NCBI GenBank assembly: GCA_027315135.1
Contig: DAHUYR010000013.1
Location: forward strand, 1 to 33,905
Direction: 5' to 3'
Length of the DNA: 33,905 nt
DNA from: Microcaldota archaeon
GTDB taxonomy: Archaea > Micrarchaeota > Micrarchaeia > Micrarchaeales > CABMGC01
In this document: in pieces, positions 1 to 20,906 of the stretch
Layout: the number at the start of each line of letters is the position of its first letter
Numbering within the stretch: the first letter of the stretch is position 1
The notes under the pieces: generated by a model
Told to the model about the DNA's origin: nothing
The model's database searches: none
Seen by the model: the letters and a program-made list of their open reading frames with translations, nothing else
Made by a program: the position numbers and the translations under genes

Positions 1-262
1 TTCAACCACCTCGACTTCAACAACATCCAGTGTCTTATATTACACATTCACAGAATCGTCAAATCCTTCGCCTGATGGCAGTGTTTCTCCAGGTACTGGA
101 AGCTATCCGGCAGGATCTGTAGTCTCGATAGGTGCTAATCCAATCACAGGTTATCATTTTGTTGATTGGACCTGCTCTGGAACAGGATGTTATTCAGGAA
201 CGAGTCAGTCGTCTTCTGTAGTACTTGGTGTGGATAATATGCAGGAGACTGCAAACTTTGCA
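1..262 (+). repeat. Long direct repeat, copy A block 1 (matches 23757..24018)
   Basis: Ungapped match by eye with about 5 mismatches over 262 nt. Confidence 0.9.
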
Positions 263-2191
263 ATAAACGTATACTCCTTTACATCTTCTGCCAACCCTTC
301 AACCGGTGGAAGCGTCTCTCCAGTCAGCGGCAATTATAATTATGGATCAGCAGTGACATTGTCTGAGACTCCAGCAACAGGACATACTTTTGTTGACTGG
401 ACCTGCACTGGAACAGGATGTTATTCCGGGACAAGCGCTTCTCCTACAGTAACTATAAGTAATGACATTGCAGAAACGGCAAACTTTGGATTAAGCACGT
501 ACACATTGACTGCAGCTTCGAACCCTTCTGGAGATGGCACTATTTCAGGAGGCGGAACGTATGCATACGGATCCAATGCAATTTTGACAGAGACACCTTC
601 GTCAGGATATCATTTTGTTGACTGGACCTGCACTGGAACAGGATGTTATGCTGGGACATCGTCTAATCCGACGGTAACAGTATATAATTCGATTGCAGAA
701 ACAGCAAACTACGCACCTAACAGCTACACGCTCACTACAGGAGCCACGCCAGCAGGAGATGGGACCGTATCGCCATCTTCAGGATCGCATACGTTCGGAT
801 CCGCTGTGACCATATCTGAATCGCCATCAACATCAAACACCTTCACAGGATGGTCATGCAGCGGCACCGGATGTTATTCTGGAACTGCAACATCAAACAC
901 AATAATAATATATGGAAATACTGTAGAGACTGCAAGTTTCTCTCCTTATCAGCCTTTCACAGAGATAGCTTCACCGACGGCAGGTGGAAGTGTCTCTCCT
1001 GGATCAAGAAGTGTCCCTTACGGAACATCAGTAACAATATCTGAATCTCCAAGTTCAGGATATCATTTTGTTGACTGGACCTGCTCTGGAACAGGATGTT
1101 ATTCAGGAACGAGTAATTCCGATTTGATAACAATCAACAACGCCGTAACGGAGACAGCAAACTTTGCATCAACAACCTCTACTTCAACTACTACTTCGAC
1201 TTCAACAAGCACATCTACCTCAATTTCAACATCGTCTACATCTACTACCGTTTCCACCTCTACTTCAACAAGCACTGCGTCTACCTCTACTACCATAGCG
1301 TCTACATCTACTACCGCTTCGACTTCACTTTCGACAAGCATATCAACTTCGACATCTTCTACATCTACTACTGCTTCGACTTCACTCTCGACAAGCATAT
1401 CAACTTCGACATCTTCTACGTCTACTACTGTTTCCACCTCTACTTCTACGACAAGCGTAAGCTGTACCCCCGGCTCTCAAAGTTGGACCGTTTCGGGAAC
1501 TTATCATTTCACGACACCTAGTGGCTGTGGATCTTCAATTACATATACAATAACCTTAATCGGAGGAGGAGGGGGAGGTTCAGGAGGTCCTGTAGGACCT
1601 AATCCCAGAGGAACTGGAATATGTGCTAGAGGACAGGACATAACAGGTGGCAGCGGAGGAGGAGGGGGAGGTTATGCAACAGGCAGCACTTCAGGTATAT
1701 TGTCAGGGACAGTCTTTACGATATACGTAGGCAACGGAGGAATGTATGATAATTCCACTGCTACAAGTCTCGCTGGATGCGCAGCAACTGCTTATGCAGG
1801 AGGCAACTCAGAAGTGACTAGTAGTTACTTCACCGTGACAGCTACTGGCGGAGCTGGTGGTGCAAGAGAGCCGTCTTCGACCAGTTCTGGAGGAACGTAT
1901 AGCTGCAGCGGCATGGGCTGCTCTGGCGCAAACGGAGCAGTAGGTCAACTTGGCTCCGATTCAATCACACCGTGCTGCTATTCAACAGGAGGCAATGGAG
2001 GAAACGCTGGAAGCTCTGGTGGTGGAGGCTTAGGAGGAATATTGAGTAGTATGTCATCGCCTTCCAATAGGACGGCCACAGCAGGATCTCCATATGGAGG
2101 CGGTGGTGGAGGAAACAATGATACATATCTCGGATACACCAACCATGGTATGCTTGGAGCTGGAGGAGAAGTTATAGTATCATGGAACTGA
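2..2191 (+). CDS. Surface/secreted repeat protein, 5' truncated by window edge: InlB-B-like repeats, Ser/Thr-rich linker, Gly-rich C-terminal domain
   Basis: Frame open from base 2, upstream of the listed ATG at 230. Repeated units of about 75 aa with GYHFVDWTCTGTGCYSGTS...ETANF; long (TS)n linker; C-terminal YTITLIGGGGGGSGG...TIYVGNGG pattern. Confidence 0.85.
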   Translation, partial: STTSTSTTSSVLYYTFTESSNPSPDGSVSPGTGSYPAGSVVSIGANPITGYHFVDWTCSGTGCYSGTSQSSSVVLGVDNMQETANFAINVYSFTSSANPSTGGSVSPVSGNYNYGSAVTLSETPATGHTFVDWTCTGTGCYSGTSASPTVTISNDIAETANFGLSTYTLTAASNPSGDGTISGGGTYAYGSNAILTETPSSGYHFVDWTCTGTGCYAGTSSNPTVTVYNSIAETANYAPNSYTLTTGATPAGDGTVSPSSGSHTFGSAVTISESPSTSNTFTGWSCSGTGCYSGTATSNTIIIYGNTVETASFSPYQPFTEIASPTAGGSVSPGSRSVPYGTSVTISESPSSGYHFVDWTCSGTGCYSGTSNSDLITINNAVTETANFASTTSTSTTTSTSTSTSTSISTSSTSTTVSTSTSTSTASTSTTIASTSTTASTSLSTSISTSTSSTSTTASTSLSTSISTSTSSTSTTVSTSTSTTSVSCTPGSQSWTVSGTYHFTTPSGCGSSITYTITLIGGGGGGSGGPVGPNPRGTGICARGQDITGGSGGGGGGYATGSTSGILSGTVFTIYVGNGGMYDNSTATSLAGCAATAYAGGNSEVTSSYFTVTATGGAGGAREPSSTSSGGTYSCSGMGCSGANGAVGQLGSDSITPCCYSTGGNGGNAGSSGGGGLGGILSSMSSPSNRTATAGSPYGGGGGGNNDTYLGYTNHGMLGAGGEVIVSWN
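713..1255 (+). repeat. Long direct repeat, copy A block 2 (matches about 24016..24565)
   Basis: Near-identical DNA from gcacctaacagctacacg through the start of the Ser/Thr linker. Confidence 0.85.
1301..1434 (+). repeat. 57-bp tandem repeat (about 2.3 copies) in the Ser/Thr linker
   Basis: Unit tctacatctactac(c/t)gcttcgacttcact(t/c)tcgacaagcatatcaacttcgacatct starts at 1301 and 1358, with a partial third copy at 1415. Confidence 0.8.
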
Positions 2192-2303: not shown

Positions 2304-2873
2304 ATGAAGATAGATATGCTTGAAAATAAAGGCAATTATCTGCGCTTCAAGCTCAGTGGAAGCGACTACTCTACAGCAAACGCCCTTAGGAGGATGCTCA
2401 TAAACAGCGTGGATTGCTTTGCGATAGACAAGGTAACCTTTTACGAGAACAACAGTGTCATGTTTGACGAATACATAGCGCACAGAATAGGAATGGTGCC
2501 GATAACGACACCAAAAGGCTACAATGAAAAGGATGAGGTGCTCTTCTCCCTTGAAGCTGAAGGGCCTAAGACAGTATATTCAAAGGACATAGAATCCAAA
2601 GATAAAGAAGTAAAGGTAGCGAATGATGACATACCAATAATAAAGCTGGGAGCCAATCAGAGATTAAAGTTTGACGGCAGGGCAGTGATCGGCCATGGTA
2701 TGAAGAGTTCAAAGTTCCAGACCTGCATTGCGACTTACAAACAGATAGATGAAAAGAATTATGATTTTTATATAGAAAGCTTCGGCCAGATGCCACCTGC
2801 TGAAATATTCAAAAGAGCAGTAAGTATAATAAACAGCGAGCTAAAAGAAATAGCAAAAGAAATGAAGAAGTGA
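2304..2873 (+). CDS. rpo3: DNA-directed RNA polymerase subunit Rpo3 (D), short form
   Basis: STANALRRMLINSVDCFAIDKV and EYIAHRIGMVPI motifs; only 189 aa, no Cys cluster. Confidence 0.95.
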   Translation: MKIDMLENKGNYLRFKLSGSDYSTANALRRMLINSVDCFAIDKVTFYENNSVMFDEYIAHRIGMVPITTPKGYNEKDEVLFSLEAEGPKTVYSKDIESKDKEVKVANDDIPIIKLGANQRLKFDGRAVIGHGMKSSKFQTCIATYKQIDEKNYDFYIESFGQMPPAEIFKRAVSIINSELKEIAKEMKK

Positions 2874-2975
2874 GCGGGGGTGGCAGAGTTTGGCCAAATG
2901 CGCAGGATTGAGGAGTTTTTACGCAAAATTCCTGTAGCTTTAGTGCTTGCGTGAGTTCGAATCTCACCCCCCGCA
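2874..2975 (+). tRNA. tRNA-Leu(GAG) with 15-nt intron (2914..2928) at position 37/38
   Basis: Acceptor GCGGGGG/CCCCCGC+A; T arm GTGAG-TTCGAAT-CTCAC; anticodon stem CAGGA/TCCTG; long variable arm; intron AGTTTTTACGCAAAA in a bulge-helix-bulge fold. Confidence 0.9.
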
Positions 2976-2988
2976 TAAAGTGATTAAC

Positions 2989-3327
2989 GTGATAGAAAAA
3001 GAGTATCTGAAAAGAGCAATTGAGGATGCGAAGTCCAGTGCTACTGATAAGAATAAGAAAAGGTCCAATTACATAGTGAGGCTCATGTCAAAACCTAAGA
3101 GGCGGAGAGTGAGCGTCAACATAGCAAAGCTTGAGAAGCTTGTGAATTCAGGAGAGAACGTTATAATCCCTGGAAAGGTGCTTGGAAGGGGAAACATAAG
3201 CAAGAAGATAAGCGTAGCTGCAGTAGTATATTCGGAAGATGCGGAGAAGAAGCTTAAGGAAGCCGGCTGCACAGTAGTAGGAATAAAGGAGATGCTGAAG
3301 AAGGATAATGTTCGTATAATAATATAG
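2989..3327 (+). CDS. rpl18e: 50S ribosomal protein L18e
   Basis: KRSNYIVRLMSKPKRRRVSVNIAKLEKLV...VLGRGNISKKISVAA. The listed ORF start at 2947 lies inside the tRNA; GTG at 2989 preceded by GTGAT (2980..2984) is preferred, GTG 2980 is the alternative. Confidence 0.93.
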   Translation: MIEKEYLKRAIEDAKSSATDKNKKRSNYIVRLMSKPKRRRVSVNIAKLEKLVNSGENVIIPGKVLGRGNISKKISVAAVVYSEDAEKKLKEAGCTVVGIKEMLKKDNVRIII

Positions 3328-3335
3328 TGATATTA

Positions 3336-3767
3336 ATGGCAGAATACTTGATAGATGGAAAGGGAAAGATCCTTGGAAGAGTCGGAAGCACTGTTGCAAA
3401 GAGGCTCCTTTCAGGAGATTCCATATTCATAGTTAATGCAGAAGATATGCTTATCAGCGGCCACCCTAAGAATATAGTTGCAAAATACAAGAGGCTGCAT
3501 GATCTCAAGGACAAGGCGAACCCAGAGCACTCGCCATACTGGTCAAGAAGGCCTGACCTTTTTGTCAAGCGCATAGTAAGAGGCATGCTTCCATACAAAA
3601 AAGCCAAGGGCAAGGAGGCGTATAAGAGGCTCAAGGTATACATTGGCTTCCCTGAAGAGCTGAAGAATTACAAGGAATACGAAATTGCAACAAAGAATGC
3701 TGAAGAGATATACGAGGATACGACTACTGTAAAGCAGATAGTCACGAAACTCGGTTACGCAGGTTGA
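3336..3767 (+). CDS. rpl13: 50S ribosomal protein L13
   Basis: IDGKGKILGRVGSTVAKRLL...RRPDLFVKRIVRGMLPYKKAKG; ATG 3336 preceded by GTGAT. Confidence 0.95.
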   Translation: MAEYLIDGKGKILGRVGSTVAKRLLSGDSIFIVNAEDMLISGHPKNIVAKYKRLHDLKDKANPEHSPYWSRRPDLFVKRIVRGMLPYKKAKGKEAYKRLKVYIGFPEELKNYKEYEIATKNAEEIYEDTTTVKQIVTKLGYAG

Positions 3768-3768
3768 T

Positions 3769-4317
3769 TTGACGACAGCTGTACAAAAAGAAGGATTGGA
3801 GAAATTAGACGCGGAATTGCAGAATCTTTACACTGAGCAGAGTACTGTAAAGAAGGAGGCTGCAAAAGTGGGCATCAAAGCGAAGCCCAAGAAGGCAAAG
3901 GCAGTGAAGCAGAAGGTTGTCTTCGTTAAGTCAAGGAGAAAAGAGGCTGTAGCAAGGGCCGTTCTTAAGAGCGGCACTGGAAGGATATTGATAAATGGCA
4001 AGAGCGTCGTAGTGATAAAGCCGCTTGAGGTTAGAGAACTCATACTTGAGGCGATAAGGATAAATGGCAGCGCCAAGGAGATAGCAGACAGATCCGACAT
4101 AAGCATCAATGTCCATGGCGGAGGAATGAGCGGACAGGCACAGGCCGCAAGGACAGCTATTGCAAAGGCAATTGTTGCGGCTTCCGAAAGCGAATCAATG
4201 AAGAAAGAGTATATGAATTATGATAGGACGCTTCTTGTAGACGATACAAGAATGGTAGAGCCTAAGAAGTTCAAGGGACCAAAGGCAAGAGCCAGGTTCC
4301 AGAAGTCTTACAGATGA
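3769..4317 (+). CDS. rps9: 30S ribosomal protein S9 with about 50-aa N-terminal extension
   Basis: SRRKEAVARAVLKSGTGRILINGK...GGGMSGQAQAARTAIAKA...ARARFQKSYR C-terminus; TTG start. Confidence 0.94.
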   Translation: MTTAVQKEGLEKLDAELQNLYTEQSTVKKEAAKVGIKAKPKKAKAVKQKVVFVKSRRKEAVARAVLKSGTGRILINGKSVVVIKPLEVRELILEAIRINGSAKEIADRSDISINVHGGGMSGQAQAARTAIAKAIVAASESESMKKEYMNYDRTLLVDDTRMVEPKKFKGPKARARFQKSYR

Positions 4318-4332
4318 TATTTGAGTGATACT

Positions 4333-4533
4333 ATGATGATTCCGATAAGGTGTTTTTCATGCGGGCAGGTAGTTGCCGATAAATGGGAACATTTCAGCAA
4401 GCGCGTAAATGAAGGCAAGGAGGATCCTCAGAAGGTACTTGATGACCTTGGAGTGAAGAGATACTGCTGCAGGCGCATGCTCATAGGACACACGGACCTT
4501 ATAGATGAGATTATAGAATACAACAAGAAGTAA
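4333..4533 (+). CDS. rpo10: DNA-directed RNA polymerase subunit Rpo10 (N)
   Basis: [21 protein letters not shown]...[24 protein letters not shown] 4333 with GTGAT at 4325 preferred over TTG 4321. Confidence 0.95.
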
Positions 4534-4586
4534 ATTCTTGCATTGTATTTAGATAGAGATAAAAATATAGATGATACATAAGATTA

Positions 4587-4692
4587 GGGGTCGTCTGCTA
4601 GTCTGGTTAGGCTCTATGCTTAGGGAGCATATGACCCGAGTTCAAAATGGCTTTTGTGTTATGCAAAAACCATGAGGCTCTCGGCGACCCCA
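4587..4692 (+). tRNA. tRNA-Pro(AGG) with 32-nt T-loop intron (4647..4678) at position 59/60
   Basis: Acceptor GGGGTCG/CGACCCC+A; anticodon arm TATGC-TTAGGGA-GCATA; T stem CCGAG/CTCGG interrupted by a 39-nt loop that reduces to TTCAAAT after removing 32 nt; BHB fold. Confidence 0.85.
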
Positions 4693-4710
4693 ATAAATTA
4701 TGGTGAAAAA

Positions 4711-5325
4711 ATGACTGAAGAACTTTTGATAGACCAAAACATTTACCTAGAGGCAGGAATACACATAGGCACTAAGATAAAGACACCAGGAATGAAGAAG
4801 TTTATTTACAAGGCGAGAGAGGACAGATTATACCTTCTTGATCTCAACACTATAGACGGTAGGATAAATGCGGCGGCAAAGCTGCTGGCGCAGTATGATC
4901 CGAAGGAGATAGTTGTAACTGCTTCGAGAATATATGCCGTTGCTGCTGCGGAGAAGTTCGGCGAGATAACAGGAGCGAAGGTAATAACAGGAAGAGTAAT
5001 GCCGGGAACGCTCACGAACCCAAACAGGGACGACTATATGGAGCCTGAAGTTATACTTATCAGCGATACGAGGAACGAGAAGCAGGCTGTCAAAGAAGCG
5101 AGCGAGACGAATATACCTATAGTTGCGCTTTGCGACACTGACAACTGGATAAAGTTCGTAGATCTGGTCATACCTTGCAACAACAAGGGAAGAAGGTCTC
5201 TGGCGCTCGTCTACTATCTGCTTGCAAGGCAGTTCCTGAAAGAGAAAGGATTAATAAAATCAAACGAGGAATTCAAGTACAAAGTCTCCGATTTCGAAGC
5301 GAAGATGGAGATGAAGGCGAAGTAA
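4711..5325 (+). CDS. rps2: 30S ribosomal protein S2
   Basis: YLEAGIHIGTKIKTPGMKKFIYKAREDRLYLLDL...PGTLTNP...DTRNEKQAVKEA. The listed start at 4654 lies inside the tRNA; ATG 4711 preceded by GGTGA. Confidence 0.95.
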   Translation: MTEELLIDQNIYLEAGIHIGTKIKTPGMKKFIYKAREDRLYLLDLNTIDGRINAAAKLLAQYDPKEIVVTASRIYAVAAAEKFGEITGAKVITGRVMPGTLTNPNRDDYMEPEVILISDTRNEKQAVKEASETNIPIVALCDTDNWIKFVDLVIPCNNKGRRSLALVYYLLARQFLKEKGLIKSNEEFKYKVSDFEAKMEMKAK

Positions 5326-5859
5326 TTGAATCCGAAAAGTTTGAGAGGGCAGGCAGCCATAGACTTCATGTCGTCTTATGGCTTTGCAATTCTCATTATA
5401 GTCATTGCGATAATTATAATATATAGAATAGGGCTGAGCGGCGTAAATGGCTTTACGCAGCAGACGTGCACTGCACAGCCGGGCTTTTCCTGTGACTATG
5501 TAAGCCTTAATACTACAGGCATACTTGCAATCAAGATGTCTCAGAATGTAGCCACTAATATGAAGATTAATGCAATCGCATGCAGCGCAGCTCTGAATAA
5601 TACTGGTGCTGGACCGCAGTTTGGCAATGTTAATATGGTTCCATCAAATTCTTTCTATCCTGCAGGCAGTAGCCCAGTTGGCATGACCTTTTACGGAAGC
5701 TCTGAGAGTATATTCTATATGAACTGTTATGGAAGCGGAGGTATACTGACTGGACAGATAAGCAAGCCGGTCATCGTATATGTCTTCATAAATTACACTG
5801 CTCCGGGATACCAGCCGGTAACACAGTTGATAATAACCGATGATGGCGCCTACACCTGA
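5326..5859 (+). CDS. Type IV pilin-like secreted protein (class III signal-like N-terminus)
   Basis: LRGQAAIDFMSSYGFAILIIVIAIIIIYRIGL followed by a Cys/Asn/Gly-rich ectodomain; TTG start. Confidence 0.75.
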   Translation: MNPKSLRGQAAIDFMSSYGFAILIIVIAIIIIYRIGLSGVNGFTQQTCTAQPGFSCDYVSLNTTGILAIKMSQNVATNMKINAIACSAALNNTGAGPQFGNVNMVPSNSFYPAGSSPVGMTFYGSSESIFYMNCYGSGGILTGQISKPVIVYVFINYTAPGYQPVTQLIITDDGAYT

Positions 5860-5876
5860 AGTGCGCATCTGTTGTA

Positions 5877-6074
5877 TTATAGGTTGAATAGGAGCATTGC
5901 CTCGTATCTTGAGAACGTCTCCAGCTTTCCGCCGCAGCTGCACCTGAATTCTGAGTCCTTCGCAGAATCATAAGGATATACTACCTTATAATCTTCGAAG
6001 CACGAAGTGCAGGTGAAGAATTGCATGTCCTTTCCCCCGTGCCTTTCCCCCATGAAGCTGTATTTGTTAGGCAA
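5877..6074 (-). CDS. Small zinc-ribbon-like protein
   Basis: 65 aa with FTCTSCFEDYKVV...FRCSCGGKLE (CxxC...CxC). Confidence 0.6.
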   Translation of the reverse strand: MPNKYSFMGERHGGKDMQFFTCTSCFEDYKVVYPYDSAKDSEFRCSCGGKLETFSRYEAMLLFNL

Positions 6075-6149
6075 TATTTATCAGTCTTGCCAAATCTGCC
6101 TTTTATCCTTCAGCATGATAGAAAAATTTATTAAGCGTTATTTAGTCTT

Positions 6150-6374
6150 ATGAATGTAGATTTCATGGAAGACGTAGCTGTTGTCAGTAGAGTTGGTAGA
6201 GCAGATAGCGGAACTGTAAAGGAGAAGAGAGAAAAGAATGAAATGGCATACAGGGATGCAGAGCGTAAGGCAAGATTATGGGACAGTATTGGTCAGCTCA
6301 AGGAAGCCGCAAGGAATGGAATTATAAGGCCTGAAAGAGTTGCTGAGCTTTCAGGAGTTAAAAGACAGAGATAA
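6150..6374 (+). CDS. Small charged hypothetical protein
   Basis: 74 aa ORF with an AT-rich TATA-like element (AAATTTATTAAG) about 20 nt upstream. Confidence 0.55.
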   Translation: MNVDFMEDVAVVSRVGRADSGTVKEKREKNEMAYRDAERKARLWDSIGQLKEAARNGIIRPERVAELSGVKRQR

Positions 6375-6392
6375 CTATATCCATAGAGCATG

Positions 6393-7844
6393 CTACTCTA
6401 TCTTCTTGAACAGCGGAGCGCCCTTCTTTGGTATATAATCTATTCTTGAGAACTTGCAATCCTCAAACCTTCCTGAGGGTATGCCCAGCTGTTTGTTTAT
6501 ACTATCTGCTGCTGCAGGCATGAAAGGCGATATTAATATTGCAATTACCCTTATTGCCTCTATAGAATTGTAAAGGGCGTTTGCAAGTTCAGATCCTTGA
6601 AGCTCCCAGGGCTTCGTGTCGTTTATGTACTTGTTTGCCGCTTTTATGAATCTCCAGATTATCTCCAATGCCTTGTAAGTGTCATACCTGTCCATAGCTT
6701 CCTGGAAGGCTTTAAGGTCCATACTGCTTTCCAAGGCAGGCTTGCCCTCGAGCTTTCCCTCAAACTTTGAGGATAATGTGAGTACCCTGAATACAAGGTT
6801 GCCAAGATCCGCAGCTAGCTCGTTGTTGTTCCGCTCTGCCAATAGCTTCTCTGAAAAATCCCCATCGTCTCCGAGAGGTAGTTCACGCATGAGGAAATAC
6901 CTGAGCGAATCTGCAGAATATTTGTTTACCAGCTCTGTAGGATCTGCCACATTGCCGATAGATTTTGACATCTTCTTTCCTTCGGATATGAAGTGCCCTG
7001 TGACAAGTACACTCTTTGGCGGCTTGAATCCCGCTGAGATCAGCATGGCTGGCCAGATTACCGTATGGAACCATACTATATCCTTCCCAACAATTTGCAC
7101 GTCTGCAGGCCAATACTTAGGTTCCTTATCGGGCCAACCCTGTGCTGAAAGGTAGTTAACAAGCGCATCAACCCACACGTAAATAGTGTGTTTGTCGTTG
7201 AACTGGAATGGTATGCCCCATCTGACAGAAGGTCTTGTCATGCTAAGGTCCTTTAGCCCATCGTTTACCCTATTTATTATCTCTGCAGCTCGTTTTTTTG
7301 GGAGTATGAAGTTGGGATTCTGTTTATAGTATTCAAGCAAGTGTTCTTGATATCTTGAGAGTCTGAAGTAATAGGTCTCTTCCTTTAGCTTGCGTACCTC
7401 TTTGCCGCATTCCGGGCATTTGCCATCTGCAAGCTGCGATTCAGGAATGAAGGTCTCGTCTGAAGTGCAGTACCATCCTTCATAAACTCCCTCATATATG
7501 TCACCGTTGTCATGCATCAGCTTTACGAAATGCTTTACTGCTTTTTCATGGCGCAACTCCGTGGTTCTTATAAAATCGTCATTTGAGATATTCAGCTTCT
7601 TCCATGCCTCCTTCCACTCTGCTGATAATCTGTCCACATGCTCCTGCGGGGAGATTCCCAGTTCTGCTGCTTTCTTCTCCACCTTCTCGCCATGCTCATC
7701 GGTTCCTGTAAGAAAGAATGTGTCATCGCCTTTTAACCTGTGCCATCTTGCCAGCACGTCTGCTATGGTTACAGAGTATGCGTGACCAATGTGAGGCTTT
7801 GCATTGAGATAAAATATCGGAGTCGTAACATAGAACTTCGGCAT
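6393..7844 (-). CDS. metG: Methionyl-tRNA synthetase (bacterial-like type)
   Basis: MPKFYVTTPIFYLNAKPHIGHAYSVTIADVLARWHRLKGDDTFFLTGTDEHGEKVEKKA; KMSKS at GKKMSKSIGN; start 7844 preferred over listed 8018. Confidence 0.95.
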   Translation of the reverse strand: MPKFYVTTPIFYLNAKPHIGHAYSVTIADVLARWHRLKGDDTFFLTGTDEHGEKVEKKAAELGISPQEHVDRLSAEWKEAWKKLNISNDDFIRTTELRHEKAVKHFVKLMHDNGDIYEGVYEGWYCTSDETFIPESQLADGKCPECGKEVRKLKEETYYFRLSRYQEHLLEYYKQNPNFILPKKRAAEIINRVNDGLKDLSMTRPSVRWGIPFQFNDKHTIYVWVDALVNYLSAQGWPDKEPKYWPADVQIVGKDIVWFHTVIWPAMLISAGFKPPKSVLVTGHFISEGKKMSKSIGNVADPTELVNKYSADSLRYFLMRELPLGDDGDFSEKLLAERNNNELAADLGNLVFRVLTLSSKFEGKLEGKPALESSMDLKAFQEAMDRYDTYKALEIIWRFIKAANKYINDTKPWELQGSELANALYNSIEAIRVIAILISPFMPAAADSINKQLGIPSGRFEDCKFSRIDYIPKKGAPLFKKIE

Positions 7845-8105
7845 AACAATACATCTTGTTATTACTCCTTCAATTATAAAGGTTTTACTGAAACTATGCA
7901 GATTTTTGGATATGGCGTCGTTGCAGAAATAGTCTAATCCTGAGCTTATGGGGTATTTTATAGGGACAGCAATGCAATTTTGTCGTAAAAAGGAGATTTC
8001 TCTTATAAAACCAGACATGGCAATGAATAGTGGAAGTGTACCGGTAATTGCAGAAAATTATATAAAATACTGACATAGAGTTATAATTAGTCAGGGGCTG
8101 ATTTT

Positions 8106-10163
8106 ATGGATGTCATTGCTAGGGAGGAGATGGAGGAAAGATTCCTTGAGTTTTACAACTCCTATTACATTGACGAGATAAATAACCTCTATCTTGAGTA
8201 TCCTGAAAAGAGGAGCGTAAATATAGACCTTGGCACGCTTGAGAAGTTCGATATGGACCTTGCAACAGAGCTTGCAAAGGATCCTGATTCAATACTTCCT
8301 GTCGCAAATTCATCACTTGCAAGGCTGAATCCGCATGCACAAACTAAGGAGCAGGTCTATGCAAGGTTCTTCGGTTCTGGAATCAATGCGCCGCTAATAC
8401 AGAATGTTGGTTCAGAGTATATAGGCCATATGATAACTGTGGACTCTCTTGTTGTCAAAAGGTCTGAGATAATACCTAAGATAAGTTTTGCCACTTACAA
8501 GTGCATGTTCTGCGACACTGTGATAAAGGAGCAGATAACAAAGGAGGAGGTTCCTGAAGTGTGCCCGCAATGCAAGAGGAAGGCATTGAAGCAGGTCAAC
8601 AAGGAATCCGAATTCATAAATATGCAGAGAATTGCCGTCCAGGACCCGCTTGAGAAACTGAGAGGCTCTACGCCGACATGGCAGCTTGAGGTCTGGCTTG
8701 CGGATGATCTTGTCAATACAGTTCTTCCTGGAGACAGAATTGAGCTGACCGGTGTTTTAAGAATAAGGCCGAGGAGGGCGTTTCGTGGGAAGGAGGACAA
8801 GTTGCTCTTCACAGTATTCTTCGAGGCTAATTCCATAATACATAAGCAGAAGGAATTCGCAGAACTGGACATAAGTGACGATGATGAGAGGAAGATAATA
8901 GAGCTTTCAAAAGATATTAGAATATTTGAAAAGATATCTGAATCGATAGCCCCTTCAATTTACGGGCATGATGACATTAAGAAGGCGCTTGCGCTGCAGC
9001 TCTTCAGCGGCACTCCTGACAAGAAGCTGATTGATGGCGGAAAGATAAGGAGCGATATACACATACTGCTTATAGGAGACCCTGGAAGCGCTAAGACAAG
9101 GTTGCTGCAGGCAGTTACTTCGTTGGTGCCGAAAGGGATATATGTGAGCGGAAAATCAACAAGCGCAGCAGGACTTACTGCTTCTGCCGAGAGGGATGAA
9201 TTTTCTGAGGGAGGATGGACGCTGAAAGCTGGGGCGCTCGTGTTAGGTTCCGGAGGAGAGGTAAGCATAGACGAGTTTGACAAGATTGGCGAGGATGACA
9301 AGTCTGCGCTCCATGAAGCGCTTGAATCGCAGACGATAAGCGTTGCCAAAGCAGGAATAGTTGCTACCTTTTCAACTAAGACCTCAGTCCTTGCTGCTGC
9401 GAACCCGAAGTATGGAAGGTTCGAGACGACCGCTTACCCTGTTGATCAGTTTAATATACCTGCGCCACTCATGTCAAGATTTGACCTGATATTCCCGATA
9501 AGGGACGTGTTGGACGAGGAGCAGGACAAGAAGATTGCAAAGCATATACTGATGCAGCACGAGCAGGCAGGCAATGCAAATGCTGGAGTAAACGTAGAGT
9601 TTGATGACCTTAAGCAGCCGCCGATGGATCATGAACTCCTTAGGAAGTATATTGCATATGCAAAGAGGAATGTAAAGCCAAGGCTTACTCCAGAAGCATC
9701 TTCAAAAATAGAGAATTTCTATATACAGCTTAGGATGAGAGGGGCAAAGCAGGGCACAACGCCAATAACGGCGAGACAGATTGAGGGTCTGATAAGGCTT
9801 GCTGAGGCAAGCGCAAAATCCAAGCTTATAGACGTTGTGTCTGAAAAGGATGCAGAATTGTCTATTAAACTGTTTGATTATATGTTGGGCACACTGGGAG
9901 TGGATAGCGAAGGAAGGCGGGATATAGACGTCATAATGGGAATACCTAAGGAAAAGGTTGCCAAGATCGGAAAGCTGCTCGGCGTGATAAAGAAGATAGA
10001 TGCGGAGGAGAATGGCGCACGTATGGTACGAATACTTGAAGAGGCTGAGAAAGAAGGTATAGACCGTTCAACAACCACGAAATATATGGCAGAACTTGAA
10101 CGATCCGGAGATATTTATTCCCCGAAGCAGGGAGTATATAAACTTGTGAAACGTGAAGAGTAA
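8106..10163 (+). CDS. mcm: Replicative minichromosome maintenance helicase MCM
   Basis: Zn motif CMFCD..CPQC; Walker A GDPGSAKTRLL; IDEFDKI Walker B; PLMSRFDLIF arginine finger; C-terminal winged-helix-like tail. Confidence 0.97.
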   Translation: MDVIAREEMEERFLEFYNSYYIDEINNLYLEYPEKRSVNIDLGTLEKFDMDLATELAKDPDSILPVANSSLARLNPHAQTKEQVYARFFGSGINAPLIQNVGSEYIGHMITVDSLVVKRSEIIPKISFATYKCMFCDTVIKEQITKEEVPEVCPQCKRKALKQVNKESEFINMQRIAVQDPLEKLRGSTPTWQLEVWLADDLVNTVLPGDRIELTGVLRIRPRRAFRGKEDKLLFTVFFEANSIIHKQKEFAELDISDDDERKIIELSKDIRIFEKISESIAPSIYGHDDIKKALALQLFSGTPDKKLIDGGKIRSDIHILLIGDPGSAKTRLLQAVTSLVPKGIYVSGKSTSAAGLTASAERDEFSEGGWTLKAGALVLGSGGEVSIDEFDKIGEDDKSALHEALESQTISVAKAGIVATFSTKTSVLAAANPKYGRFETTAYPVDQFNIPAPLMSRFDLIFPIRDVLDEEQDKKIAKHILMQHEQAGNANAGVNVEFDDLKQPPMDHELLRKYIAYAKRNVKPRLTPEASSKIENFYIQLRMRGAKQGTTPITARQIEGLIRLAEASAKSKLIDVVSEKDAELSIKLFDYMLGTLGVDSEGRRDIDVIMGIPKEKVAKIGKLLGVIKKIDAEENGARMVRILEEAEKEGIDRSTTTKYMAELERSGDIYSPKQGVYKLVKREE

Positions 10164-10200
10164 CGGTGTTTGAATAGAAAGAAGAATAGGGTATAGGCAG

Positions 10201-11343
10201 TTGACAGAGATACTGGCCCTATTCATGATAGTACAGTTCTTCGGTCTGTTTGTAGCGACATTTTCCACGACTCCGGTACAGACCATAATTATAGGCAATT
10301 CCAGCAGCAGCAGCTTATTCAGCAATCCTTTGATACTGGCGATATACGACGTTGTTGCAATTGCAGTATTTGCAGTGCTGATACTTGCAATCCTCAGAGT
10401 ATACAAAAACAAAGGAGCGCTGCTCTTCAGGTTCATAGAGGCATTTGCAGTAGGTTTTGGTACGGCTGCTATGTTCTTCTTTATATTTGCAACCATATTC
10501 TATACTGCAAATGTGTTGTACACCGCAGGAGCTGCAGTAGTTCTTAGTGCAGCAGTGGTAATTGCAAAGAACAAGGTAAGGAGCCTGAGAAACTTTGCAG
10601 CGCTCACGTCAAGCATAGGTCTTGGGGTTATGATAGGCGCTTACGGATTCAGCCTTGCTTATGTATTTATGTTCATCATGGCAATATACGACTATATTGC
10701 AGTATTTGTCACCAAGCATATGCTTGCGCTTGCAAAAGCCGCTTCGAATGAGAACCTCTCCCTGCTCATAGGCTCTTCAAATGTAGAGGTAATGCCTAAG
10801 GCGCAGACAAACAGGAAGATGGTTGCAGAACTGAAGAATGAGATTAAGAAGAACCAGATAAAGGATCCGATTATAAGAAAGATAATAGATTCGGGGGAGA
10901 TGCCTGTCCTTTCCCAGATACAGCTTGGAGCTGGGGACCTTACCCTCCCTTTGGTTATGTCAGTAGGACTGTTCATATCCTTGTTTAATTACTATCTTGC
11001 AGTAGTAGCTGCCATAGGCGCTGTCGCAGGCCTTGTCACGACCATGTGGCTGCTGAAGAGATATTCGGTTGCGCTCCCTGCTATCCCGCCTTTGTTTGCG
11101 GTGATGAACTTCTTCGTAGGGATAGGCATGCTCACGTATTCTAAGCCAATGAGCTTCTTGTCAGGAATCGGCATAACTTCAGGCACAACTGCAGAGTATT
11201 ACAAATTTGCTTTTGGGATGATTGTAGTTGGTGTGGTGTTCATGTTAATCATGCTAATAACTCTTGAGAGGAACCGAAGCAGACAGAAAAAGGGGGTGCG
11301 TCACACGGCAAACCTGCACAAAAGCCTTAAATATCTAATTTAA
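10201..11343 (+). CDS. Presenilin/signal peptide peptidase-like (A22) intramembrane aspartyl protease
   Basis: Multi-TM protein with AIYDYIAVFVTKHM (YD), LGAGDLTLPLV (GxGD) and ALPAIPPL (PALP-like) in order. Confidence 0.82.
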   Translation: MTEILALFMIVQFFGLFVATFSTTPVQTIIIGNSSSSSLFSNPLILAIYDVVAIAVFAVLILAILRVYKNKGALLFRFIEAFAVGFGTAAMFFFIFATIFYTANVLYTAGAAVVLSAAVVIAKNKVRSLRNFAALTSSIGLGVMIGAYGFSLAYVFMFIMAIYDYIAVFVTKHMLALAKAASNENLSLLIGSSNVEVMPKAQTNRKMVAELKNEIKKNQIKDPIIRKIIDSGEMPVLSQIQLGAGDLTLPLVMSVGLFISLFNYYLAVVAAIGAVAGLVTTMWLLKRYSVALPAIPPLFAVMNFFVGIGMLTYSKPMSFLSGIGITSGTTAEYYKFAFGMIVVGVVFMLIMLITLERNRSRQKKGVRHTANLHKSLKYLI

Positions 11344-11490
11344 TTTAGAGAATATTTGTTTGTTATGAGAGGTTCTTGTAACTATTCTTCAAGAGCATTG
11401 CTTAAGACGCTCGGATGCGCTGTGTAGAATAAAATGCGGTTGCATTGGTTTTGTGTTATATGAATAATTATAGTATATGCGTGGTGTTTG

Positions 11491-12858
11491 ATGGAAAAAC
11501 AACTTAAAGAAGCATATGAAAACAGTTTCGACAAGCAGCGTGAAGGAAGACTGAAGATTTCTTTAGATTTGCCCATAGTCAGGACAAACAAGCATCACTA
11601 TGGTGAAGCTGCAAGAATAATAGATATGACTAATTTAGTAAGAGAAATAGGTAGTATGGATTCATGGACCGTCTCTACCAAGGGCTTTTTTGCTACAAAG
11701 AAATTTGGAGACTCTGAGGTGAAGGTAGGCACAAACTTCAGGAGTGGAGTGCTTGAGGTTAAGCTCCCCATGGCAGCTAACCTGCATGAAGCTGAAGATA
11801 GCGTGATTGATATATGGAACCATATAGCAAGATCTGCAAAAGATGCAGGAGTTGCTGCGCTTGCGTATGGAAGCCAACCATTATCCAAGGCGAGCGAAGA
11901 ACTGTTGATTAAGAATTGCAAAAACAGAGTTCTTGCAAGCAAATTAAATGATAGGTTCTGCTATCTGGGCTTAGTGGCATCCGAGAAGGTGCATGTCGGA
12001 GTTACAGGGAAGGAGATGCCTTTGGTAAACAATGTGCTGAATTATTACTCTCCTGCAATAATATCCCTTACTGCAAATTCTGCAATAATTAAAGGCAGGA
12101 GCGTAGGCTTTGCGGATTATAGAGGTATCGTAACAGATATGGTGGACTTTAGCGGAAAGGAAAGGAAGAAGATGAACGATTCCAGAAGAAGAATAATGCG
12201 TCCCATATCCAGTGTTGAAGAATACGTCGATATGATGCTGGATGTTACGCCCATGTATACAATGAGAGAGGGAAAGCCTGTGGCGTTTAGCGGGATAAGC
12301 AAGTTCAGGGAATTTGTCAACAGAGAAAGCTCCGAGGTTGTCTTTATAGATAGCTTGGAGCGCGTGAAGACAGCTCCGATCATAACACCCGAACCTATAG
12401 ACTTCTACTATCACGAGCGCACCTGCTGGACCGATGCAAGGCCAAGAGGAATCTATGGTACTGTGGAATTAAACACTGTAAGCATGCAAAGCAGCGTAAA
12501 GGAAGTAATGGCTGTCGGAGCACTTACCTTGGGATTGGCTGCAAACGCGAAGGAGGCGTGGGAGGATATACGTAGATATGATATCGAATATCTTGAAGTA
12601 CTTAGAAGAGATGCTATGGAGAAGGGAGTGTCTTTGGGAAGAACTGGGCATAAAGGAGTCGTCACTCTTGAATCAGTCATGCTGGATTACGCTGAAAAAG
12701 GACTTAAGTTAATCGGAGAAGATATTTCATACCTTGACCCGTTGCGCAGGAACTATGATGAAGCCGTAAGTCCTGCACAAAGAAGCATAGATTGCCTCAA
12801 ACAGGAGCAGGGCAGTATTAGCGCTTTTGTAGACGTTTATAGAATCAAGGAGGTGTAA
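11491..12858 (+). CDS. Divergent GCS2-family (glutamate-cysteine ligase/carboxylate-amine ligase-like) protein
   Basis: KVHVGVTGKEMPLVNNVLNYYSPAIISLTANSAIIKGRSVGFADYR resembles the GCS2 HVHVG...LSANSP segment; ARPRGIYGTVELNTVSMQSSVKEVMAVGAL resembles RP..GTVE.R..D motif. Confidence 0.7.
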   Translation: MEKQLKEAYENSFDKQREGRLKISLDLPIVRTNKHHYGEAARIIDMTNLVREIGSMDSWTVSTKGFFATKKFGDSEVKVGTNFRSGVLEVKLPMAANLHEAEDSVIDIWNHIARSAKDAGVAALAYGSQPLSKASEELLIKNCKNRVLASKLNDRFCYLGLVASEKVHVGVTGKEMPLVNNVLNYYSPAIISLTANSAIIKGRSVGFADYRGIVTDMVDFSGKERKKMNDSRRRIMRPISSVEEYVDMMLDVTPMYTMREGKPVAFSGISKFREFVNRESSEVVFIDSLERVKTAPIITPEPIDFYYHERTCWTDARPRGIYGTVELNTVSMQSSVKEVMAVGALTLGLAANAKEAWEDIRRYDIEYLEVLRRDAMEKGVSLGRTGHKGVVTLESVMLDYAEKGLKLIGEDISYLDPLRRNYDEAVSPAQRSIDCLKQEQGSISAFVDVYRIKEV

Positions 12859-12862
12859 AAGG

Positions 12863-13414
12863 TCAGCTCCTGAATGCCTTCTTCATAGCCTCTTGACCAT
12901 GTGTGCTTGCCTTTGCTTCAGTAAGTCCCGCATCAAGCATCATTACCTTGCTCCTTGGCATTATCCCAAGCACTATTGGAGCCACATAATTCTTTGGAAG
13001 GCTTGCATCAAATGTGAAGCGCCTTCCACTCTCGATCGCATCTGCATCGCTGTTGACTATTACCGTCAGCGGAGCAGAACCGAACCACGCATACACGTTT
13101 CTTTCTATGTCGTGTTTTTCCCCATGTGTGAGCTTGCCGCGCTTGTTGAAGAAGTAATGGTTTACCAGCTTGTGGCCATCTGCATTATCGTCTATGTAGA
13201 ACCATTTTCCCTTTAACTGTTCGAGTAAGCAGTTATCCTGGCTTATATTCACGAGTGCTTCCTTGTATGTAAGCGGTCGGAGATCATTGCGCTTCAACAG
13301 CTTCATTGATTTCTCATAATCGACATTGGCACGACCGAAAAGGACTATTGTGCTTGCAGGCTCCTTGAAATCTATCTGAAACGTGTAAGTTGGAAGCGAA
13401 CACCAATCCATCAA
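12863..13414 (-). CDS. Hypothetical protein, 183 aa
   Basis: Long ORF convergent with the GCS2-like gene; no family recognised. Confidence 0.7.
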   Translation of the reverse strand: MMDWCSLPTYTFQIDFKEPASTIVLFGRANVDYEKSMKLLKRNDLRPLTYKEALVNISQDNCLLEQLKGKWFYIDDNADGHKLVNHYFFNKRGKLTHGEKHDIERNVYAWFGSAPLTVIVNSDADAIESGRRFTFDASLPKNYVAPIVLGIMPRSKVMMLDAGLTEAKASTHGQEAMKKAFRS

Positions 13415-13563
13415 ACCATATTTAAGTGGAATCAGGCTGATATAAAAAGATTTTCTTTAATTTTAGCAAGGTAGCAAAAGTTATTAATATAAAATGCGAA
13501 GATTCAGCTTGCTTGCTTATCCTGAAAATAAAACGGATTGTTGAATATAACCAGAAGAGAAAA

Positions 13564-13655
13564 TGGGCCCGAGGAGATTTGAACTCCTGACCTACGGCTA
13601 ACTTAGGCTAAAGCCGTATAAGACCGCCGCTCTGACCAGGCTGAGCTACGAGCCC
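13564..13655 (-). tRNA. tRNA-Ile(UAU) with 17-nt intron (13600..13616) at position 37/38
   Basis: Minus strand: GGGCUCG acceptor/CGGGCCC+A, D arm GCUC..GAGC, anticodon stem GCGGU/GCCGU, T arm AGGAG-UUCAAAU-CUCCU; canonical BHB: helix CUUA/UAAG flanked by bulges UA^C and UU^A, hairpin GGC-UUUA-GCC. Confidence 0.88.
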
Positions 13656-13750
13656 ATGATTTAAGAGATTAGGTTACTTTATTTATATTAATTTCTGTTT
13701 TAAACTGACTTATTTTATATAGTAGTTAATATAAGATTATATGTGATTTT

Positions 13751-15052
13751 ATGGATCTTGGCGAAGGATTGAGGAAGGCTATTGCAAAACTTAGCGGAGC
13801 TACCATAATGGATGCCAAGACAATCCGTGAATTCAACAAGGAGCTGCAGCGCGCCTTGATCTCGTCTGATGTAGAGCTAAATCTAGTTATGGCGCTTACT
13901 AACAAGATAGAAAATGCAGCGCTTAAGGAGAAGCTTCCGGAAGGGATAAGCCCGAGAGAATACATAACGAATATGATTTATGAGGAGCTCGTCGGGCTTA
14001 TGGGAAAGGAATATGCTCCTGAGATAAAGCCGAAACGCATATTGCTCATGGGTATATACGGATCTGGAAAGACAACCACTACTGGAAAGCTTGCTAAGTT
14101 CTATCAGGATAGAGGGTTAGGAGTAGGAGTCATCTGCTGCGACGTTTCCAGGCCTGCGGCTTATGAGCAGCTTGAGACTGTAGCCAAGCAGGCAGGAGCA
14201 GGCTTCTATGGCATAAAAGGTGGAAAGGACGTAAGCGAGATAGTTAGGAATGGGCTTGCGGAGCTTAAGAGCAAGAAGGTAATCATATGCGACTCGAGCG
14301 GAAGGAGCGGAATGGATAGCGAGATGATAAAGGAGCTGAAGGAGATAGACAATGTATTCAAGCCAGATGAGAGATTCCTTGTGATAAATGCAGATATAGG
14401 ACAGGTGGCTGGGAGGCAGGCGCGTGAATTTGGAGCGGCTGTTGGAATAAACGGAGTCATTGTAACGAAAATGGACGGGTCGGGAAGAGGAGGAGGGGCA
14501 CTGAGCGCTGTTAATGAGTCTGGCAGCAAAGTTGCATTTATAGGAACCGGCGAGAAGCTGGGCGACATTGAGCTTTACGATTCGAAAAAGTTTGTAGGCA
14601 GATTGCTAGGGATGCCAGACATAGAATCCCTTATTGCAAAGGTTAACGAAGCTGCGAAGAGTGTTGGTGTCAAGGAGATAAATGAGATAAACGAGCTAAA
14701 CTTTGATGTTTTCTACCAGCAATTAAAGGCCATGTCGAAGATGGGTCCGATGAAGAATGTTCTTGGAATGATGGGGCTTGCAGATGTGCCAAAGGAAATG
14801 GTCGAGGGAGGGGAGAGCAAGCTTAAGATTTATGAATCAATAATAGGGTCGATGACAAAAGCTGAAAGAAACGATGAGAAGCTAGTAAGGGACCTGAGCA
14901 GGATAAAGAGAATTGCGAAGGGAAGCGGAAGGACTGAAAAGGACGTGAGAGGGTTGCTGAATGATTTCAACCGCATGAAAAAGATTGCAGGGTTGATGAA
15001 GAACGACAGAGCATTCAAGAAAAACTTCTCGAAATTTGCAGGAATGAAATAG
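13751..15052 (+). CDS. srp54: Signal recognition particle protein SRP54
   Basis: N domain, GIYGSGKTTTTGKLAKFY, CCDVSRPAAYEQL, TKMDGSGRGGGALS, LGMMGLADVP M-domain. Confidence 0.95.
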   Translation: MDLGEGLRKAIAKLSGATIMDAKTIREFNKELQRALISSDVELNLVMALTNKIENAALKEKLPEGISPREYITNMIYEELVGLMGKEYAPEIKPKRILLMGIYGSGKTTTTGKLAKFYQDRGLGVGVICCDVSRPAAYEQLETVAKQAGAGFYGIKGGKDVSEIVRNGLAELKSKKVIICDSSGRSGMDSEMIKELKEIDNVFKPDERFLVINADIGQVAGRQAREFGAAVGINGVIVTKMDGSGRGGGALSAVNESGSKVAFIGTGEKLGDIELYDSKKFVGRLLGMPDIESLIAKVNEAAKSVGVKEINEINELNFDVFYQQLKAMSKMGPMKNVLGMMGLADVPKEMVEGGESKLKIYESIIGSMTKAERNDEKLVRDLSRIKRIAKGSGRTEKDVRGLLNDFNRMKKIAGLMKNDRAFKKNFSKFAGMK

Positions 15053-15054
15053 GA

Positions 15055-15110
15055 AACGACGAAAAAAGGATGAAAAAAGAGAAAAAGGATGAAAAAAAGA
15101 AAATGAAAAA
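15055..15110 (-). terminator. Multiple T-tracts (minus strand) after the tiny basic ORF
   Basis: Minus strand reads TTTTTTTCATTTTCTTTTTTTCATCCTTTTTCTCTTTTTTCATCCTTTTTTC, consistent with archaeal poly-T termination. Confidence 0.4.
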
Positions 15111-15125
15111 AACTTCATCCTTAAA

Positions 15126-15191
15126 TTATCTCTTTCTCTTTGGCTTTGCTTTCTTGGCCTTTGACTTAGCCTTTTTCTTTGCTTTTGCCAT
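15126..15191 (-). CDS. Tiny Lys/Ala-rich basic protein, 21 aa (MAKAKKKAKSKAKKAKPKRKR)
   Basis: Complete ATG..TAA ORF; upstream TATA-like TTTTAAATATATG at suitable distance; downstream T-tracts. Below the length cutoff of the ORF track. Confidence 0.5.
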   Translation of the reverse strand: MAKAKKKAKSKAKKAKPKRKR

Positions 15192-15309
15192 TTTATTCAC
15201 GATATAAATGTTGTTGAACATATATTTAAAAGGTAATTTTGGCAATATTGAGTGTAATAAAAGGTTTTTACACCTGTATAATGTTTTTATCTGAATACAA
15301 AGTGATTAT

Positions 15310-16422
15310 TTGGCTGACAAGGAAGCTCTTAAGAGGAAACTTGACGATCTTGAAAAGGAGTACAGCGGTACGAAATATAATAAGGCTACTAACAAGCATT
15401 TGGGCATACTCAGAGCCAAGATTTCCGAGATAAAAGAGCAGATGGATAAGAAGAGCAGCAAGAAAGGGCAGGGCTTCTCGGTAAAGAAGAGTGGCAATGC
15501 AACTGTGTGCATGGTTGGGTTTCCGAATGCAGGCAAATCCTCGACTCTGAGGGCACTCACTGGAGTGGAATCTAAAGTTGCAAGTTATGCGTTCACAACG
15601 CTTGACGTAATACCAGGGAACCTTGATTACAAAGGTGCGAAGATACAGATATTCGATCTTCCTGGGATTGTTGAGGAGGCGCATGCTGGGAAGGGTAGGG
15701 GCAGGGAGATAATAAGTGTGATGCGATCTGCCGATCTGGTCCTATTTATAGTAGATATTAATGACCCGAGTGGCATCATAAAGCTGGTTGAAGAGCTTAA
15801 GCTTGCAAAGATTAGGATAAATGCCAAACGGCCTTCAATAAGGATAGAGAAGAAGCCTTCTGGAGGCGTGACAGTTTCGTCGGCATTTGGGAAGGTGCCT
15901 CCCAAGGACAGCATTATCGGCGCCCTGAACGGACATAAGATATTCAATGCGAATGTCTACCTAAACGGCGATTGTTCGGAAGAAGAATTTGAGCAGTTTC
16001 TGAGCGGGCAGGTGATGTACATAAATGCCGTAACTGCAATCAACAAAATCGACCAGAAGACTGACTCTGAGGTAAAGAAGATTGTTGATGATGTGGTAAA
16101 GAGAACGGGCATAAAGACCGTTCCTATAAGCGCAGAGCATTTTATCAACATAGACGCGCTTAAGGAAGCGATATTCACCTCTCTCGGACTGGTGCGCATT
16201 TATTTGCGGCCGAAGGGAGGAAGCGCTGATTTTGAAAAGCCACTTGTTGTTGATGAGGGAGAGACTGTTTTGGATGCAGCAAAGAAGTTGAATTCCAAGA
16301 CGGCGAAGGATGCGATCTGCGCGTATGTCACTGGGCCAAGCGCAAAATTCAAGGCACAGCGTATGGGGTTGGAACATGTCCTGATGGACGGCGACGTAGT
16401 TACGCTTGTCTATAGGAAGTAA
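15310..16422 (+). CDS. DRG-family (Obg-like) GTP-binding protein with TGS domain
   Basis: VCMVGFPNAGKSSTLRALTG, YAFTTLDVIPGNLDYKGAKIQIFDLPGIVEEAHAGKGRGREIISVMRSADL; TTG start preceded by GTGAT. Confidence 0.93.
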   Translation: MADKEALKRKLDDLEKEYSGTKYNKATNKHLGILRAKISEIKEQMDKKSSKKGQGFSVKKSGNATVCMVGFPNAGKSSTLRALTGVESKVASYAFTTLDVIPGNLDYKGAKIQIFDLPGIVEEAHAGKGRGREIISVMRSADLVLFIVDINDPSGIIKLVEELKLAKIRINAKRPSIRIEKKPSGGVTVSSAFGKVPPKDSIIGALNGHKIFNANVYLNGDCSEEEFEQFLSGQVMYINAVTAINKIDQKTDSEVKKIVDDVVKRTGIKTVPISAEHFINIDALKEAIFTSLGLVRIYLRPKGGSADFEKPLVVDEGETVLDAAKKLNSKTAKDAICAYVTGPSAKFKAQRMGLEHVLMDGDVVTLVYRK

Positions 16423-16473
16423 ATGCAGACATCAAAAGCTAGTAATTAAATCTTTTTCTTGTGATAGGACATC

Positions 16474-16890
16474 ATGCCGATAAAGTACTGGGAGTATGAG
16501 GATGCGCCGCTCAAGGAAAAGCTGAAGGATGTGAGCGTAAAGCATGTTGCAAAGATATACTTCGAGAATGAGACAAAGGCGTACAGGTTTGCACGCGCCA
16601 TTTATGAAGTTAAGGAGAGAAAGGAGCTTCGGCTCAGGGACTGTCCTGACGATCTGCCACAGGCGACATGGAAGAGATATCTTGATTACGGAGTTACAGT
16701 AGGCATACTGAAGCATGAAGCTGGGATGTACAGTTTCACCGACAGATACTCTAAACCATTGAAGAATATTGCGACCTACATAGGCGAATGGATAAGCTCT
16801 GACAAGAAAGAGGACCTTGGAATAGTTTTCGCTAGTGCAAAGATAGGGAGGCAGGCGAAGCGCGGTGGAAGGGCAGGTGCAAAGGAATAG
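16474..16890 (+). CDS. Conserved-looking hypothetical protein, 138 aa
   Basis: Well-formed ORF between DRG and convergent cysS; basic C-terminal tail. Confidence 0.65.
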   Translation: MPIKYWEYEDAPLKEKLKDVSVKHVAKIYFENETKAYRFARAIYEVKERKELRLRDCPDDLPQATWKRYLDYGVTVGILKHEAGMYSFTDRYSKPLKNIATYIGEWISSDKKEDLGIVFASAKIGRQAKRGGRAGAKE

Positions 16891-16892
16891 GC

Positions 16893-18338: not shown

Positions 18339-18340
18339 TA

Positions 18341-19111
18341 TCAGCTGTAGTTGAGGATTGTTGTGTTAATGATTATCCCCCGGTCCAGCTTTGGAGTTGG
18401 GCTGAGATAGAAATTACCTGCGCTTATGTATGAATATTTGGAAGAGGTTGATGCCTGCAGGTCTGAGACTATCTTTATGCTTGCATTTTTGCATAGTAGA
18501 GGATACAGGTTCATGCTACCATTCAGGTATGTAGTGAAATAATTACCGTTTATTGACTGATTAAATGTGTCGAAGTAGACTCTTTCAAATACAGTATTTC
18601 CAGATATGGCTTCCAAATATAGTCCCTGATTCTGAGCGGAGATTATCTTGAAGTTGAGATATGGCTCCACCACTTGGAAGGGTTTGGAGGTGAGGTTGCC
18701 TTGGCCAGATAAGAACCCTTGGTATGTAGATGCGACAAATGTGTTGTTATATCCTGTCCATGGGGAACCGTAGTAATTGTGGTTGTTATTCATGTATGTA
18801 AGGTTCAGCGGCGTGCTTCCGAAGGCTTTGCCAGTAGCGTTCCATCCTACATATGTCCCTGTGCTGAAGTTTCCGTTAAATAATGGAGATGCAGTTGGGG
18901 TTGACGGAACACAGAATGAATGTAGGTTTGATCTCGTTGTAGTGTACAAGATAGATGTAGTCCTTACAGATGTGGAAGAGGTCGAGGATATTGATGAAGA
19001 AAGTATGTGAAGTGGCAGTGGGGTGCCAGTATTTGTCATGTTTAATATTACTACTACCACTATAAGAACTGCAAAAACGCCTATATAAGCTATTATCTTT
19101 TTTGTGTTCAT
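18341..19111 (-). CDS. Membrane-anchored/secreted Ser/Thr-rich protein
   Basis: N-terminal hydrophobic helix IIAYIGVFAVLIVVVVILNM, then Ser/Thr-rich stretch and many N-x-S/T sites. Confidence 0.75.
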   Translation of the reverse strand: MNTKKIIAYIGVFAVLIVVVVILNMTNTGTPLPLHILSSSISSTSSTSVRTTSILYTTTRSNLHSFCVPSTPTASPLFNGNFSTGTYVGWNATGKAFGSTPLNLTYMNNNHNYYGSPWTGYNNTFVASTYQGFLSGQGNLTSKPFQVVEPYLNFKIISAQNQGLYLEAISGNTVFERVYFDTFNQSINGNYFTTYLNGSMNLYPLLCKNASIKIVSDLQASTSSKYSYISAGNFYLSPTPKLDRGIIINTTILNYS

Positions 19112-19229
19112 ATGAACCTCTCAGAATAAAGAGTTTAGAGCATATTTATAAATTATACCTAATAAGCTTAATAGATATATTGTTTCATTATTTGTAATAT
19201 TTCAAATATAATTAGCATTGGTGCTCATT

Positions 19230-19343
19230 TTGGGAAGTATACCTAGAAAATGGAAAAAGAAAGGAAGAATGCGCTGGAAATGGGTAAAGAAAAGAAGGAA
19301 AAGAATAAAGCGAGCGCAAAAGAGAAGAGTAGGGGACCTCTGA
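19230..19343 (+). CDS. rpl41e: Ribosomal protein eL41 (L41e)
   Basis: TTG(19230)- or ATG(19269)-initiated ORF: (M)[36 protein letters not shown], matching the archaeal [17 protein letters not shown] signature. Missing from the ORF track because of size. Confidence 0.85.
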
Positions 19344-19349
19344 GGTTAG

Positions 19350-20896: not shown

Positions 20897-20906
20897 TTGA
20901 TCAGAA

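Follow-up and report, generated by a model that had tools for sequence, protein, structure and literature searches.

Evidence for recurrent, partial gene conversion between two genes for putative stalked surface proteins with differing tips in a Micrarchaeota genus

Paralogous genes in prokaryotes can evolve in concert, such that the copies in one species are more similar to one another than to their syntenic orthologs, synonymous sites included (PMC6053082; mtrA, PMC4632066). The gene pair described here is alike in this respect. A survey of concerted evolution lists 26 prokaryotic genes, seven of them archaeal, all from methanogens (PMC6053082); here, in contrast, the product is a surface protein of a DPANN lineage, and only its anchor and stalk are homogenised, with the tip exempt. 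Recombination between homologous surface-gene copies is also familiar from antigenic variation of pilE in Neisseria, but in that system a single expressed gene gains diversity from silent partial copies (PMC3899283), whereas here two intact frames have a homogenised anchor and different tips.

The protein layout has its own counterparts. The adhesion pilins PilA1–PilA6 of Haloferax volcanii, which vary in adhesion, likewise join a conserved N-terminal domain to differing distal parts, and they carry class III signals, as predicted for our proteins (PMC4371748). They are pilins with a conserved hydrophobic (H) domain, whereas our proteins have ∼250 anchor residues plus repeats, span 0.6–1 kaa and are homogenised at the DNA level. 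Fibrillar adhesins similarly carry an anchor, a repetitive stalk and a distal domain on one long surface protein (PMC8286594, PMC9210967); those are bacterial, while the present ones are archaeal and bear a predicted pilin-type signal and a putative binding tip. Our literature search, made largely outside the subscription journals, found no paper joining Micrarchaeota with the InlB B-repeat and did not find the present case in work on gene conversion in DPANN or other archaea. This is a known process in a new case: conversion ends before the tip, and tips relocate, in a DPANN lineage. It adds a DPANN example to the few archaeal instances of concerted evolution. For small episymbiotic archaea, which have to attach to host cells, the pair supplies named loci and domains for testing host specificity and recombination.

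The window, 33,905 bp, is the entire contig C25 of G000, a Micrarchaeota (DPANN) metagenome-assembled genome (MAG) of 807 kb in 50 contigs. Relatives were compared at both loci (G001, G004 and G005) or at the B locus (G002), and every genome compared is a MAG. The features of the two genes, A and B, are as follows.

1–2191, +: gene A, 3' part; open frame from base 2 to the stop, with five stalk repeats, Ser/Thr linker and Gly-rich tip
1–262, +: gene A linker and repeat r1; 98.1% identical to 23757–24018
263–715, +: two PF18998 units, r2 and rX, in A and not in B (offset change, PF18998 matches, junction sequences)
713–1255, +: gene A repeats r3 and r4 and start of linker; 95.8% identical to 24016–24558
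1169–1459, +: gene A Ser/Thr linker (translation)
1460–2188, +: gene A C-terminal tip, Gly-rich; homologous to same-locus tips in G004 and G001
2304–22022: conserved interval between the loci (Rpo11, L18e, L13, S9, S2, MetRS, MCM, SRP54, CysRS, Kae1, TrpRS)
22885–22911, +: 5' edge of the A/B homologous tract (BLASTN boundary); AT-rich, promoter-like TTATTTAAAT; no homology upstream
22912–25065, +: complete gene B, encoding 717 aa from an assumed TTG start
22912–23756, +: B N-terminal anchor domain; candidate class III (pilin-like) signal, QVSIEY from 22984, hydrophobic helix
23757–24480, +: B stalk, repeats r1, r3 and r4 (PF18998 profile matches)
24481–24576, +: B Ser/Thr linker (translation)
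24577–25062, +: B C-terminal tip; across 139 aa it shares 47% identity with the tip of a third-locus gene of G005 (C31)

The sequence-only reading had noticed near-identical DNA modules in two genes about 23 kb apart, and BLASTN with gapless comparison reproduced both blocks. The first has 5 mismatches, with its initial 131 nt identical; the second is gapless with 23 mismatches and ends at 24558. E-values near 0 exclude chance. The range 1–1255, described there as copy A, holds only the 3' stalk of a gene cut by the contig start, a truncation missing from that account. Between the blocks, the offset from A to B shifts from 23756 to 23303, a surplus in A of exactly 453 nt (151 codons); in agreement with the earlier count of two extra repeat units, it contains two PF18998 (InlB-B-type) units, with profile matches at 287–487 and 509–721. 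PF18998 scored 117.2 bits for A and 61.7 for B (curated cut-off 23.6). Elsewhere in the assembly, a search for further copies found PF18998 only at the end of contig C35. The tips of A and B gave no BLASTP match to each other, as expected from the claim of unrelated C-termini. The A tip scored 23.9 bits against PF21722 (Gly_rich_2), just below the cut-off of 24.3, and its orthologs score above it; the B tip matched no Pfam family and no known adhesive domain in profile searches.

By synteny, contig C35 ends in the 5' part of gene A. The last stretch of this contig, C35:22463–23567, is 93.8% identical to B over 1105 nt, and the first 359 codons of the terminal open frame are 94% identical to B. 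Homology begins 27 nt before the assumed TTG start and takes in the AT-rich promoter-like stretch, with unrelated flanks upstream. Preceding this frame are genes for AsnRS, a FEN1-like protein, Peptidase_A24, and CsaA-like and RNA-ligase-like proteins. In G004 and G001 the A-locus gene is immediately preceded by the same genes, and G005:C14 carries them in unchanged order. Because they precede the A-locus gene in three relatives, we assign the C35 copy to the upstream half of A; a third paralog was considered and rejected on this synteny. The C35 end (L008:9336–9568) should overlap window positions 1–233, yet 23 of 233 nt differ, and thus the two ends are not one sequence; the window end is nearer gene B. 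A strain variant, an extra r1-like unit or a misassembly are possible sources of this mismatch. In G000 and in G005, the A locus is split between contigs within the gene, and homogenised loci may explain broken short-read assemblies, and possible misjoins, at such places.

The encoded proteins run from a candidate class III (pilin-like) signal through stalk and Ser/Thr linker to the tip. The N-terminus, KKEQVSIEYMVIFAFAF, has charged residues, then Q(+1)xS(+3)xE(+5), then a hydrophobic helix. The same Q(+1), S(+3), E(+5) pattern is reported for EppA-type class III signals (QXSXEXXXL) of euryarchaea (PMC2910488), with cleavage and assembly here predictions; unlike the EppA-type case, only one Peptidase_A24 was found in this assembly. 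That sole type IV leader peptidase lies on C35 (L008:4850–5749), ∼3 kb upstream of gene A. Against PF04021 (class III signal), the anchor scored 16.9 bits, below the cut-off of 23.7. A model of the B anchor placed a helix at residues 4–30 with low confidence; mean pLDDT was 36 for anchor plus first repeat (4 sequences) and 33 for the B tip (single sequence). The anchor and r1 had no match in a PDB sequence search, and the viral contigs searched showed no relative. The assembly also encodes T2SSF and two T2SSE genes. From these sequence features we infer that the products of A and B are stalked surface proteins displayed by, or alongside, type IV pili. A role as adhesins is plausible, and the tips may bind host cells, a step suggested by the lifestyle of Micrarchaeota (PMC5498576, PMC5864196). 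Window 5326–5859 holds another small class III-like (RGQ|AAIDFM) pilin-type gene, whose position is conserved in G001, G004 and G005.

Both loci are old. The A locus precedes Rpo11–L18e–L13–S9, and the B locus lies between TrpRS and RpoB. In G000, G001, G004 and G005 each of the two loci carries a family member, as does the B locus of G002. One 252-kb contig of G004 includes both genes, separated by 23 kb in which the gene order is the same. Since each copy has syntenic orthologs in the other species (G000, G001, G004, G005), the paralogs predate the species split. A and B thus form an old pair of paralogs in one Micrarchaeota genus, alike in orientation and each with a fixed place on the chromosome. 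The interval also holds genes for a presenilin/signal-peptide-peptidase-like protein (10201–11343; PF06550), a glutamate-cysteine ligase family 2-like protein (11488–12858; PF04107, 46 bits) and, on the minus strand, a genus-conserved secreted-type protein with an N-terminal hydrophobic segment, a Ser/Thr stretch and no Pfam match (18341–19111).

In G000 and G004, anchor similarity does not follow these positions. Across 247 anchor codons, A versus B within a genome gave dS 0.16 and dN 0.02, both in G000 and in G004, while dS between species was 0.9–3.5 whichever locus was compared. In these two genomes, then, synonymous divergence between the copies is not that of single-copy genes, the outcome that had been named beforehand as refuting. 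In the tree, the two G000 genes grouped together (100/100), as did the two from G004 (95/97), and monophyly of the A-locus genes was rejected (p-AU 1.4e-48, log-likelihood 340 lower). Homogenisation, as proposed from the window sequence, is therefore seen in G000 and G004 but is not universal: the G001 pair has diverged (dS 1.41), its B gene lacks repeats and tip, and conversion there is absent or old.

The tracts are bounded, with unaffected flanks, and their limits differ by species. The G000 tract begins 27 nt ahead of the start codon and reaches into the linker. G004 shows ∼680 nt of near-identity followed by ∼65–70%, with an abrupt drop at the anchor end. Across repeats r1–r5 the G005 copies are ∼98% identical, except that their linkers differ in length. 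Differences in G004 are clustered (a 281-nt identical run; 0 of 5000 shuffles), and its tract contains islands in which each gene retains sites of its own locus, as judged from the G001 gene at that locus (8 locus-consistent versus 2 crossed). For the G000 tracts, the run-length test for clustered differences was weak (187, 905 and 296 of 5000 shuffles), and patchy tracts are clear only in G004. Such patchiness is the pattern that gene conversion would leave. RadA and Hjc are encoded in the G000 assembly. The syntenic loci, clustering by species and species-specific boundaries bear out the proposed homogenisation by recombination, and recurrent partial gene conversion between the loci is well supported by these comparisons.

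Tips behave differently. At the A locus, G000, G004 and G001 have homologous tips, which are Gly-rich domains. Yet the tip at the A locus of G005 is the one found at the B locus of G004 (73% identity across 358 aa), and the B tip of G000 resembles that of the G005 third-locus gene, which has a different N-terminus. The G005 B tip is different again, and B-locus tips differ in every species. Since related tips sit at different loci in different species, tips move between loci or are replaced, in keeping with the swappable tips proposed earlier. Stalk length varies as well, as had been suggested, from 0 to 5 repeats. Base and stalk appear to have been copied between the two genes in at least three species, with the exposed tips different or swapped.

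Could the pairs instead have arisen by independent recent duplications, with one locus in each species newly seeded with the 5' part of the other by insertion and fusion to a local tip? The variety of B-locus tips would suit such a history, as B genes might have been rebuilt each time. Against it speak tract lengths that vary by species, an insertion point and orientation identical in four species, orthologous A-locus tips, and the locus-specific islands inside the homogenised tract of G004, which require resident old copies. We consider this history unlikely. Collapsed or chimeric repeat assembly, giving rise to one copy or to the near-identity itself, would be a natural suspicion for a contig that begins inside gene A with a stretch identical to B, and for a C35 that ends inside the same gene with a mismatched overlap. 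But the copies differ at ∼2–6% of sites, mostly synonymous in the anchor, and so are not one sequence; moreover, G004 shows the same pattern with both genes on one contig. An assembly artefact is therefore very improbable.

Strong sequence constraint might also keep anchors alike with no recombination at all. Anchor dN/dS within pairs is about 0.11, indicative of purifying selection, and this fits a part obliged to match shared machinery. As a substitute for recombination, constraint is contradicted by synonymous sites, which are alike within a genome and near saturation between species, and we give this explanation next to no weight. We put the probability at about 0.85 that A and B are two old paralogs undergoing recurrent conversion of anchor and stalk, with tips exempt and mobile. 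The observations behind this reading are the conserved loci, homogenisation within species, tracts particular to each species, relocated tips and the change in stalk length.

On this reading, the product of each gene would be a surface protein built from a pilin-type (class III) N-terminus, a PF18998 beta-repeat stalk, a Ser/Thr linker and a C-terminal tip of its own. Homologous recombination without crossover would repeatedly copy the promoter-proximal stretch, the anchor and the stalk from one locus to the other, so that paralogs would remain alike within species; tips, lying outside the converted tract, would stay different and sometimes be moved or replaced. The products would be processed by the single type IV leader peptidase and displayed by type IV pilus machinery or in the membrane, and their tips may bind host or neighbour cells. 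Selection may favour a uniform anchor with diverse tips; keeping one assembly part while varying what it binds is a plausible benefit. A bolder version is that Micrarchaeota possess a built-in system in which conversion between dispersed expressed surface loci keeps anchor and stalk uniform and reshuffles a tip library, altering host-cell recognition, even within one population. This we hold to be speculative and rather doubtful; if true, the differing sequences at the C35 end and the window start would represent alternative alleles.

Similar families are present in other Micrarchaeota. Among the sampled relatives outside the genus, several (G053, with six genes, and G017, G043, G047 and G042) have dispersed class III-signal genes that share modules of ∼74–91% DNA identity over 0.6–3.2 kb, with C-termini that do not align. 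Recent duplication is a possible origin of these modules. G010:C4 (L110) is a 6.9-kb contig with a related anchor module at either end (1–572 and 6342–6913); the two copies are inverted and 92% identical, possibly an inversion-prone arrangement. In G042:C1 (L062), a single-contig genome, positions 873484–874553 hold a perfect 535-nt tandem duplication in a PF18998 gene region.
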